From Paralysiella testudinis (lineage in GTDB: Bacteria > Pseudomonadota > Gammaproteobacteria > Burkholderiales > Neisseriaceae), in contig NZ_CP069798.1 of assembly GCF_016894345.1 (NCBI RefSeq), positions 1,013,385 to 1,077,384 on the forward strand: a stretch of 64,000 nt of DNA. The letters are read 5' to 3'. The position numbers and the translations under genes are program-made. Positions 43,375 through 46,304 of the stretch are shown one piece after another. The notes below the pieces were generated by a model that made no database searches, was not told the origin of the DNA, and worked only from the letters and a program-made list of their open reading frames with translations. Positions within the stretch are counted from its first letter, which is position 1. Each line of letters starts with the position of its first letter.

Positions 43375-43555
43375 TGTTATGTTTTCGGGTATTACTTTAA
43401 TTGCATAAGCTTGATGCCGAATGCAATGAACAGTTTTTATTTTGATGGATTCGAATGCGGTTTATTATTTTTTAGATTCGGTATTTTGATTAAGGCTGCC
43501 TGAAAACAAAAGGCATACTGCCACTGCTGCCGTAATGGCCTAGCTGGGAGATACA

Positions 43556-43915
43556 ATGAGAAATCAAGCAATTTTGGCGATATTGCAAAATCTGAATGCC
43601 GCACGTGATATTAATGCTTCGGCGGTGGTGTCAGTCGATGGCTTGTCGATGGCTTCTGCATTTCCGATGGATATGGATGAAGACCGCATCGGAGCGATGT
43701 CGGCAGCCATGGTGTCGTTGGCGGTACGGGTGGCCAAGGAAGTGATACAGGGGCGCTTGGATCATGCGATTGTGAATACCGACAATGGCTATATGCTGTT
43801 TTTTCAAGTTAACGAAAGTGTTTTGCTGGTTACCACTACACCGGCAGATGCCAAATTGGGGTTGGTTTTATACGATAGCCAAAATGCACTGCAAAGCTTG
43901 GCTGCGGTGCTGTAA
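43556..43915 (+). CDS. Roadblock/LC7-domain protein, paralogue 1
   Basis: 119-residue single Roadblock/LC7 domain: ILQNLNAARDINASAVVSVDGLSMASAFPMDMDEDRIGAMSAAMVSLAVRVAKEVIQGRLD, VNTDNGYMLFFQVN. Such proteins dimerise and bind small GTPases (for example MglB with MglA) or act as regulatory platforms. No MglA-type GTPase is in the window. GGGAGAT precedes the ATG. Separated by 697 bp of repeat-rich DNA from a clearly related paralogue at 44613. Confidence 0.88.
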   Translation: MRNQAILAILQNLNAARDINASAVVSVDGLSMASAFPMDMDEDRIGAMSAAMVSLAVRVAKEVIQGRLDHAIVNTDNGYMLFFQVNESVLLVTTTPADAKLGLVLYDSQNALQSLAAVL

Positions 43916-44612
43916 ACACAATGCTGCAAATCAATAACTGAAGATACGCACCCGTATCCAGTGTCACTATAGTTAAGGCTGCCTGAAGCATACAAATGGA
44001 TTGTCGGACCCGGTTCGGTCTTAAAAATCTATTGCATCTACGAAGGCAGATGCCTAGGCTGTGTCCTCATTTTAAATCTTGTTGAAAAATGACCCAATAT
44101 TTTGGCTATCTTGGCAATTTTCCAAAAGACAAACCATCGTTGTACGTCAATTTTTTGGCCTTTTGAGTGCAAAAAGGCCTATTTTCGTCTTCCTCCACAA
44201 ATGAGGACACACTCTAGTCTGAAGCAAGACTTCTGCTTCACGGCATACATCTATTACTTTTAATAACTGAAGATACGCACTCATTATAAGGCTGCCTGAA
44301 GCCCTCCACGGGTATTTCCGTTACACCTACGTAGGCAAGTACCCAGTTCAAAACACCGCTTTGATTCTAATAAAACAACGGAAGCCTTGCTTCAGACTGC
44401 GTATCTGCTTAACACAGGTGCAGCGGACACGGTAGCACAAGAATTTCAGTCAGCCTTAGCTGATATACTTAGCATGCAGTAGTTCATTAGGCCGTAAAAC
44501 AGAAAATTTGACTATCCTCAAGTAGGTATTGAAAATACCATGATAGTATGAATTCCTTTTTTCGTTTTGATTAAATGGCTAATATATTGTCATATTTTGG
44601 GATATTTAAATT
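43916..44612. other. 697-bp repeat-rich region between the two Roadblock genes
   Basis: No gene. It holds two copies of AATAACTGAAGATACGCAC (43933-43951 and 44262-44280), each followed within about 50 bp by an uptake sequence. A MITE-like element lies at 44054-44216. The last 100 bp are AT-rich and should carry the promoter of the second Roadblock gene. A third, diverged copy of the repeat (TGACTGAAGTTACGCAC) is at 46367-46383. Confidence 0.55.
44054..44216. mobile_element. Putative MITE or IS remnant with CTAG-GTGTCCTCATTT ends
   Basis: CTAGGCTGTGTCCTCATTT (44054-44072) and AAATGAGGACACACTCTAG (44199-44217) are inverted repeats matching at 17 of 19 positions. They bound about 163 bp with no coding capacity. 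CTAG at both outer ends could be a target duplication. The interior (TTTTTGGCCTTTTGAGTGC, AAAAGGCCTATTTTCG) looks like the ends of an insertion sequence whose transposase has been lost. The family is not recognised. Confidence 0.6.
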
Positions 44613-44978
44613 ATGAGTGATTCTGTTTTAAACGATATCCTGCAAAAATTGAACCAATCTGGCGAGATTGTTTCTTCCGCAGTGGTGTCCACCGATGGCT
44701 TACCTATTGCCGCCGCTTTGCAGACTGGGGTAGATGAAGACCGCATCGGTGCCATGTCTGCCGCCATGTTGTCGCTGGGCACTCGCTCAGCCAAAGAGGT
44801 ATTGCAAGGTACCCTCAACCATTCCATCATCCACACCGACAACGGCTATATGTTGCTGTTTCAGGCAGCCGATTCCATTTTGCTCACCATCACCACCACC
44901 CGCGATGCCAAGCTGGGCTTGGTGCTGTTTGAAGCCAAGCGTGCGCTAAAAGACATTGCCCGCCATTTTGGTGAGTAA
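44613..44978 (+). CDS. Roadblock/LC7-domain protein, paralogue 2
   Basis: 121 residues, same domain as the gene at 43556, with shared blocks SAVVSTDGLPIAAALQTGVDEDRIGAMSAAML, AKEVLQGTLNHSIIHTDNGYMLLFQ and TTRDAKLGLVLFEAKRAL. Heads a probable operon with a PAS protein (81 bp on) and a PhnD-like binding protein. An in-frame uptake sequence encodes part of LLFQAAD. Confidence 0.88.
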   Translation: MSDSVLNDILQKLNQSGEIVSSAVVSTDGLPIAAALQTGVDEDRIGAMSAAMLSLGTRSAKEVLQGTLNHSIIHTDNGYMLLFQAADSILLTITTTRDAKLGLVLFEAKRALKDIARHFGE

Positions 44979-45058
44979 GCCACCCATTGTTGTTTTCTTC
45001 CAGCATTGCAGGCTTTCTTTGCCTGCTTTAAATTCGATAACAAAAAGACGATACACAC

Positions 45059-45565
45059 ATGAACATTCATGATTTACAACCACCGCGGCCCACTGGCGGC
45101 ACAGTGGTTGAAAAAACACTGCATTACTTCAACGACAGCACGGCCCGCACTGTGTATGTTACCGATATCGAATTTCCCTATCCCGATGGCGAGCTCATTG
45201 TGTCGCGCACCGACACCAACGGCATTATCACCCATGCCAATCAGGTATTTGTGGACATCAGCGGCTGGCAGCGTGAAGAAATCATTGGCGCCCCGCACTG
45301 TATTTTGCGCCACCCCGATATGCCCAAAGCGGCCTATGCCGATTTATGGGCCACCATCCAGCGTGGTGAGCGCTGGATGGGCTATGTGAAAAACCTGCGC
45401 AAAGACGGCGGCTTTTATTGGGTGTACGCCACCGTGCTGCCCAATATTCGCCAAGGCAAGGTAATCGGCTACAGCTCCATCCGCCGCAAGCCATGCCGCA
45501 ACCAAGTGGCCGAAGCGGAAGCTTTATATGCCGCCATGCGCGCACAGGAGGGCAGCCATGTTTAA
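45059..45565 (+). CDS. PAS-domain protein, Aer-type sensor module
   Basis: 168-residue soluble protein with one PAS domain. It resembles the aerotaxis receptor Aer: ELIVSRTDTNGIITHANQVFVDISGWQREEIIGAPHCILRHPDMPKAAYADLW, then KNLRKDGGFYWVYATVLPN. Aer PAS domains bind FAD and sense redox; here there is no HAMP, membrane or signalling domain, so output must go through partners. Its end overlaps the PhnD-like gene by 8 bp. Confidence 0.87.
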   Translation: MNIHDLQPPRPTGGTVVEKTLHYFNDSTARTVYVTDIEFPYPDGELIVSRTDTNGIITHANQVFVDISGWQREEIIGAPHCILRHPDMPKAAYADLWATIQRGERWMGYVKNLRKDGGFYWVYATVLPNIRQGKVIGYSSIRRKPCRNQVAEAEALYAAMRAQEGSHV

Positions 45566-46304
45566 GATGATGGTGGTGCCGGACTACATGCCGGATCAAT
45601 TCAGCGCTTGGTATATGCTCAATACCCATTTGCAAAAAACCGCCGACATCAATATCGGCTTGGTGATGCCCGAATCGTTTGCCGAGGTGGCGCAGTTGCA
45701 AAAAGCCACCCCGGCGGCGATGATTTATGCCAACCCGTTTGATGCCGGCCATTATGTGCGCGACCAAGGTTACCGTCCGCTGGTGCGTCCGCGCGAGCAG
45801 TTCGACGAAGTGGTGTTGGTGTGCCCGGCGGATGCCGCCTATCAGCGCATCGAAGACTTACAGACTCCGCTGCGCTTGGCGGTATCGCACAACGAAGATG
45901 CCAACTTTATCGGCCAACGCCTGCTCGAGCCTGCCGGGCTGCCTGAAAGTGATGTCGAGCGCCAACACAAAGACAATTTTCTAATGGTGGCCTCTGCGGT
46001 GGCGCGCGGCCAGGCCGATGTGGGCATTGTGTCGGCGGATGTGTATGCGCAATTGAGCGACATTACCCGCAGTCGGCTTAAAGTATTGCTGCAAAGCCGC
46101 ATCAACGAAATCAGCCATGTGTGGCTTTACCTGCCGCAATGGCAAGCCGAAGCCGATGCCTTGCAGCCGATACTCACCGAGCTGCACACCGATGAACCGG
46201 GCCGCCGGATTTTAACCAGCTTGGGTATGCCTGCGGGCTTTGAAATCCTAGATGAAGAAAGTATGGAATTTATGATTGATTTGGTGGATACCCTGCGCGA
46301 TTAA
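45558..46304 (+). CDS. PhnD-like (phosphate/phosphite/phosphonate-type) binding protein without signal peptide
   Basis: 248 residues from ATG 45558 (GGAGGG upstream; overlaps the PAS gene). A type II periplasmic-binding fold of the PhnD/PhnD-like group: AEVAQLQKATPAAMIYANPFDAGHYVRDQGYRPLVRP, then IEDLQTPLRLAVSHNEDANFIGQRLL, ARGQADVGIVSADVY and LTSLGMPAGFEILDEESM. No signal peptide or lipobox, so it appears cytosolic and may act as a ligand sensor rather than a transporter component. No ABC permease is adjacent. Confidence 0.82.
   Translation: MFKMMVVPDYMPDQFSAWYMLNTHLQKTADINIGLVMPESFAEVAQLQKATPAAMIYANPFDAGHYVRDQGYRPLVRPREQFDEVVLVCPADAAYQRIEDLQTPLRLAVSHNEDANFIGQRLLEPAGLPESDVERQHKDNFLMVASAVARGQADVGIVSADVYAQLSDITRSRLKVLLQSRINEISHVWLYLPQWQAEADALQPILTELHTDEPGRRILTSLGMPAGFEILDEESMEFMIDLVDTLRD

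Follow-up and report, generated by a model that had tools for sequence, protein, structure and literature searches.

A flavin-type PAS protein and a cytosolic PhnD-like protein as candidate sensors for a Group 3 Mgl small-GTPase switch in Paralysiella testudinis and its relatives

We analysed a 64,000-nucleotide stretch of the Paralysiella testudinis genome (contig NZ_CP069798.1, positions 1,013,385 to 1,077,384; hereafter the window), in which a Roadblock/LC7 gene (RB2) is followed by genes for an Aer-type PAS protein and a PhnD-like binding protein, with a second Roadblock gene (RB1) upstream. On balance, we favour the reading that RB2-PAS-PhnD serves a Group 3 Mgl small-GTPase switch as its sensory arm. 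What carries this reading is the identity of the genes, the cytosolic location of the PhnD-like protein, the unity of the operon in relatives, the co-inheritance of the set with an MglA-like GTPase, and a conserved pocket for flavin adenine dinucleotide (FAD) in the PAS protein. This PAS-PhnD extension of Group 3 Mgl is real and conserved and, judging by the open literature, undescribed; in the open-access literature we found no relevant paper joining roadblock with PhnD or phosphonate.

Operon unity was assessed in two sets of genomes. A class sample of 370 gammaproteobacterial genomes was searched with a profile of the PhnD-like family, which scored above 140 bits in 22 genomes; apart from second copies in those genomes, the next match, at 65 bits, was an ordinary periplasmic PhnD. 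In 14 class-sample loci and at locus L118, the genes for P424 (a protein with predicted receiver-like and winged-helix parts), the GTPase, a large Roadblock-like protein (bRB), a Roadblock protein (RB), PAS and PhnD follow one another on one strand in this same order; one further locus, L159, is truncated by a contig end and starts at the GTPase. The second set comprised 80 loci of named GTDB genomes, out of at least 494 relatives. In 78 of these 80 loci PAS is found upstream of PhnD, contig ends truncating the other two, and in 65 a Roadblock gene lies upstream of PhnD, which indicates that the adjacency of the three genes is not due to chance. Across the tabulated operon loci, the Roadblock gene is upstream and on the same strand in 18 of 18. 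A second gene order, RB-PAS-PhnD-X-P424'-GTPase-bRB', recurs in many named loci, and the GTPase is found within 5 kb in 29 of the 80. Given the shared operons in the class sample and the gene orders of the named loci, the module is, by gene order, a single unit that underwent rearrangement and, in Neisseriaceae, separation. The spread of the operon, rather than a rooted reconstruction, suggests that the change ran from one operon to a split one.

The GTPase is also co-inherited with the set. In the class sample it is present in 20 of the 22 PhnD-positive genomes and in 52 of the 348 others (p=9e-14, a value that spans many families and ignores kinship). Within Neisseriaceae, all 24 PhnD-positive genomes have MglA, while six genomes without MglA are also without Roadblock and PhnD (p=7e-4).

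No GTPase gene was recognised beside the set among the open reading frames (ORFs) of the window. Profile searches of the whole genome revealed a third Roadblock domain at G000:C1:505177, within a locus (L004) that encodes, on one strand, a TPR protein, P424, a 178-aa Ras-like GTPase, bRB and RB. The original prediction, a short note made from the sequence of the window, had placed the GTPase elsewhere in the genome, and it is indeed encoded about 0.55 Mb away (G000:C1:506197-506721; L004:11192-11728), in an operon that also encodes two further Roadblock-type proteins. It resembles solved MglA structures and Rab proteins, and scores 305 bits against the alignment of the GTPase family. Its G3 motif is GTPGQE, with the Thr for Asp that is a hallmark of MglA, and GTPGQ is invariant in 14 homologues. 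Its G5 motif is VDAR, containing the Group 3 DAR motif, and its G4 motif, TKMD, keeps the lysine that is often missing in Group 3; DAR in G5 and a deviating G4, often without lysine, are described as Group 3 features in the available part of PMC4316618. Its neighbour RB scores 63.5 bits, whereas bRB is a weak match to Pfam (14.3 bits, below the cut-off). The adjacent P424 stands where the same part of that source predicts a receiver-like/winged-helix companion of unknown function. The window set and the GTPase are thus not in one operon in this genome, and the window holds a separated part rather than a complete system. The genome has a second PAS-PhnD pair (L102:6052-7298; G000:C1, around 2.153 Mb) without a Roadblock gene nearby, at a chromosomal place common to Snodgrassella (L111, L113); in the trees it groups with a different pair.

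The features of the window locus are as follows.

43556..43915, + strand: RB1, a Roadblock/LC7 protein of the orphan MglB-3 clade, 119 aa, downstream of upp (Pfam Robl_LC7 3.3e-10)
44054-44217: element resembling a miniature inverted-repeat transposable element (MITE) between RB1 and RB2, with 19-nt imperfect inverted ends CTAGGCTGTGTCCTCATTT / AAATGAGGACACACTCTAG and CTAG flanks
44613..44978, + strand: RB2, a Roadblock/LC7 protein and, by its tree, MglB-3 orthologue, 121 aa (Pfam Robl_LC7 8.1e-13)
45008..45026, + strand: weak terminator-like hairpin between RB2 and PAS (consensus match only)
45059..45565, + strand: Aer-type PAS protein of the predicted FAD-binding kind, 168 aa, soluble, without output domain (Pfam PAS_3 2e-13)
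45546..45552, + strand: ribosome-binding site of the PhnD-like gene, within PAS (AGGAGGG, 5 nt before ATG 45558)
45558..46304, + strand: cytosolic PhnD/PtxB-like binding protein, 248 aa (Pfam Phosphonate-bd 1.1e-31)

Several elements of the original prediction stand in this layout. The two Roadblock genes are paralogues, 58% identical at the protein level; with 40 bits for RB1 and 48 for RB2 against a Robl_LC7 cut-off of 23, and with their short length, both fit the MglB family. The last two genes overlap, as predicted, by 8 nt (45558-45565, ATGTTTAA), and PAS and PhnD look co-translated. The likely start of the PhnD-like gene is ATG 45558, since the AGGAGGG motif precedes it and family members align there; a longer ORF from 45528 is just the mechanical choice of the first ATG. 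The proposed RB2-PAS-PhnD operon looks sound for its last two genes; for RB2 and PAS, which are separated by an 80-nt gap holding the weak hairpin, co-transcription appears likely. RB1 is probably a separate transcription unit, because 697 nt and the MITE-like insertion lie before RB2 and because RB1 follows upp; the orphan Roadblock gene of genome G035 (L112) also adjoins upp. The 697-nt gap has no gene but uptake-sequence copies and two inverted-repeat elements, and a hidden gene was ruled out, as there are just short ORFs besides these repeats. The MITE-like element is single-copy within the window. No known RNA element reached the gathering threshold at the locus, and the window Roadblocks and the PhnD-like protein matched no curated NCBIfam name. 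The sequence AGGCTGCCTGAA has 45 sites in the 64-kb window against 0.02 expected (for example at 43493, 43976, 44289 and 46394) and looks like a DNA-uptake-sequence dialect of Neisseriaceae. A further motif, AACTGAAGATACGCAC, occurs near the uptake sequences of this locus at 43936, 44265 and 46368, one copy with 2 mismatches, against 0.03 expected.

The window PAS protein matches the Aer structures 8dik and 31cj at 2.5e-39 and 1.7e-39 (about 137 bits), in agreement with its original description as Aer-type. The FAD-contact residues of Escherichia coli Aer, H53, R57, W70, N85 and R115 (PMC9668731), correspond to H80, R84, W97, N112 and R142 of the window protein and are invariant in 22 aligned members. 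FAD would be expected to bind here, and the protein is very probably a redox sensor, because all five checked contact residues are invariant. It resembles E. coli Aer PAS in the strong match and in these five residues, but it is free-standing, without the membrane anchor, HAMP domain or chemoreceptor signalling part of Aer.

The PhnD-like protein has no signal peptide in the alignment. In all 115 of 115 relatives the start codon lies 2-8 residues ahead of the fold and there is no hydrophobic leader, whereas one is present in 8 of 8 periplasmic PhnD-type controls. The absence of a signal peptide is thereby confirmed, the export signal that the original prediction named as evidence against itself is ruled out, and the family is, as predicted from its N-termini, cytosolic in all 115 members. 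A structure model (predicted local distance difference test, pLDDT, 95.7) shows the expected two-lobed PhnD/PtxB fold, with PtxB closest (Z 22.7, root-mean-square deviation 3.1, 237 aligned residues) and ArrX, AioX, PhnD and XAC2383 as further close matches. The protein shares its fold with the periplasmic PhnD of ABC (ATP-binding cassette) transporters but lacks the signal peptide and adjacent ABC genes; no ABC permease or ATPase was seen among its immediate window neighbours (upp upstream, a two-component system downstream). AioX and ArrX function in arsenic regulation. XAC2383 partners a diguanylate cyclase, according to the available part of Teixeira 2018. Sensory use of this fold therefore has precedent in these three proteins. 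They act in the periplasm, whereas in the window family, which has no export signal, sensing would have to be cytoplasmic. The family is a clear case of a binding-protein fold that has apparently shifted from transport to cytoplasmic signalling. The original idea of a signalling module that senses redox state, a ligand or both is supported.

The phylogeny links the window set to a published phenotype. RB1 and RB2 fall in a 100/100 clade with orphan Roadblocks of Snodgrassella and Stenoxybacter, apart from the GTPase-coupled ones (the alignment has few columns and the bootstrap values are rough). RB2 is 71-73% identical to the Snodgrassella Roadblocks that stand beside PAS-PhnD, and the window PAS and PhnD proteins each group with the Roadblock-linked pair of Snodgrassella (99/97 and 100/100). 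With RB2, PAS and PhnD all placed beside their counterparts in the Snodgrassella cassette, the trees indicate that the window cassette is inherited as a block. In Snodgrassella communis strain B10998, a G78R substitution (GGA to AGA) in the orphan mglB-3 swept during honeybee passage and was accompanied by motile flares on 0.5% agar and by an advantage in honeybees, a new host (PMC11112851). In strain LMG 28360 of the same species, the Roadblock gene next to PAS-PhnD has GGA as its Gly78 codon and is the only Roadblock match outside the GTPase locus. Gly78 is kept in window RB1 and RB2, and in RB2 it corresponds to the site of the Snodgrassella mutation; by tree placement, RB2 is the orthologue of mglB-3. 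The Snodgrassella mgl locus thus resembles the window in clade, in the conserved glycine and in the adjoining PAS-PhnD genes, but the genome of the window additionally has RB1. PMC11112851 does not mention the PAS-PhnD neighbours of mglB-3 (neither "phosphonate" nor "substrate-binding" occurs in it).

The mechanism that we propose is as follows. The ancestral order is taken to be one operon of TPR, P424, the MglA-like GTPase, bRB (MglB-1), RB (MglB-2), PAS and PhnD-like genes. In the lineage of the window the GTPase half and the sensor half would have come apart, and the sensor half would have been duplicated, giving the second PAS-PhnD pair and RB1. The PAS protein would read the redox state of the cell via FAD, and the PhnD-like protein a small cytoplasmic anion or metabolite as its putative ligand. 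Through presumed contacts with Roadblock dimers (of RB2, of RB1, perhaps also mixed dimers with Roadblocks of the GTPase operon), both would alter how these dimers set the GTP/GDP state of MglA, which in turn may adjust type IV pilus-dependent surface behaviour. Type IV pili are our best guess for the output, by analogy with MglA biology and with the Snodgrassella flare phenotype (PMC11112851). More tentatively, and with some doubt, we propose a Ras-like GTPase switch under the direct control, via Roadblock dimers, of a flavin redox sensor and a periplasmic-type binding protein located in the cytosol; it would tune surface motility and host colonisation to redox state and to a metabolite inside the cell.

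Several results weigh against this interpretation. Seven Neisseriaceae genomes have MglA without PhnD, and the sensors are therefore dispensable. In four of the 22 PhnD-positive class genomes (L168-L171) the PhnD gene stands without PAS or Roadblock nearby. When 22 named genomes were tested for the GTPase, eight had no match at 1e-20; at E<=0.01, seven of these eight retested genomes still had no MglA-family GTPase, which rules out a divergent MglA in them at this threshold, and the eighth gave a 27-residue fragment. The seven (Polaromonas, 3; Psychrobacter, 2; Stenotrophomonas sp. MMGLT7; an Accumulibacter metagenome-assembled genome) keep RB-PAS-PhnD-bRB', and genome G189 (L155) has the operon without a GTPase. 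The sensory set can therefore outlive, or function without, MglA. In the genomes compared, then, the GTPase link is not universal, and this is the chief argument against a pure MglA-regulator reading. The original prediction would have been abandoned if the set occurred widely without any GTPase or co-occurrence pattern, and here the outcome is divided between the strong co-occurrence with MglA and the seven genomes that lack it. Further, the window Roadblocks belong to the orphan clade and not to the GTPase-coupled one, and orphan MglB is stated, by analogy, to be without GTPase-activating protein activity (PMC11112851). The pilus link is weak: pilT is present in 22 of 22 PhnD-positive and in 295 of 348 other class genomes (p=0.03). 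The suggested link to gliding is not supported, as the set occurs, among the matches listed, not only in Alysiella but also in Snodgrassella, Stenoxybacter, Psychrobacter, Moraxella, Xanthomonas, Ottowia and others; this wide occurrence in organisms not known for gliding rules it out as the common factor.

These results raise the possibility that RB-PAS-PhnD is a sensory platform of its own with various partners, MglA being one of them, and that the Roadblock dimers of several lineages regulate some other protein or serve as a scaffold. The MglA-free genomes that retain RB-PAS-PhnD-X-bRB', the GTPase-less L155 with both Roadblocks kept and a second PhnD, and the orphan-clade position of RB1 and RB2 would all fit such a platform. 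We nevertheless consider it rather unlikely in view of the strong overall co-occurrence with MglA, the repeated shared operons in two gene orders, and the fact that PhnD never occurs without MglA in all Neisseriaceae tested. It is also conceivable, but improbable, that the module acts on transcription and not on pili, through P424 as an output of the kind that Wuichet and Sogaard-Andersen proposed for Group 3. No other gene accompanies the GTPase as constantly as P424 (PMC4316618, available part), but P424 has no DNA-binding Pfam domain, and the one known phenotype of any member's orthologue concerns surface spreading and colonisation of the host (PMC11112851). That PAS-PhnD is an unrelated redox/phosphonate pair, found by chance beside Roadblock genes in a few lineages, is very hard to credit and largely refuted by gene order across many families. 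PAS-PhnD does stand without Roadblock in 13 named loci, all from Neisseriaceae, and so does the second pair of the window genome (L102), but the upstream Roadblock gene in most named and all tabulated operon loci and the agreement of the RB2, PAS and PhnD trees speak against chance.

Some loci deserve separate mention. In G189 the GTPase-less operon (L155:7484-8701) has, between bRB and RB, an additional and divergent PhnD-domain protein. In two distant genomes (L118:7937-9436, L152:2892-4622) the MglA-like GTPase is fused behind a Ser/Thr protein kinase domain, possibly a phosphorylation input to the same switch. The operon at L166:2577-6361 (G339) is broken by several frameshifts or stops in GTPase, bRB, PAS and PhnD, and represents a decaying copy or a poor assembly. 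The record BMPS01000005.1 (L221), titled Streptomyces cinereus JCM 3040, looks mislabelled: the genome is 2.8 Mb in size, the operon is Moraxella-like, and its Roadblock groups with Moraxella.

If the GTPase is directly regulated by a binding protein and a flavin sensor, this would be a hitherto undescribed type of GTPase regulator. Regarding the signals that feed MglA-type switches outside Myxococcus, a flavin PAS with a cytosolic binding protein is a concrete and widely conserved candidate input. It connects with a host-shift mutation published for a bee symbiont, and its genes are found in genetically workable species.

Among known systems, the Group 3 MglA/MglB of beta- and gamma-proteobacteria shares with L004 the G3 Thr, the DAR G5, coupled MglB-type Roadblocks and a companion in the position of P424; it differs in that the available part of PMC4316618 lists P424, MglA and one or two MglB, with no mention there of PAS or a cytosolic PhnD. 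Here, moreover, part of the set lies elsewhere in the genome. The Myxococcus xanthus MglA/MglB/MglC system with RomR/RomX and SgmX likewise has a Ras-like GTPase under Roadblock control and a second Roadblock paralogue, but it belongs to Group 1 and the window system to Group 3; it is not known to contain a PAS or PhnD-like subunit. The GTPase operon here begins with a TPR gene, and in M. xanthus a TPR protein is an effector of MglA for pili (PMC7519303, available part). The actinobacterial conservon (Cvn) also combines a Roadblock protein, an MglA-family GTPase and a sensor protein in one operon, but according to the available part of PMC13343842 its sensor is histidine-kinase-like, whereas here a soluble flavin-type PAS protein and a binding protein would take that role.

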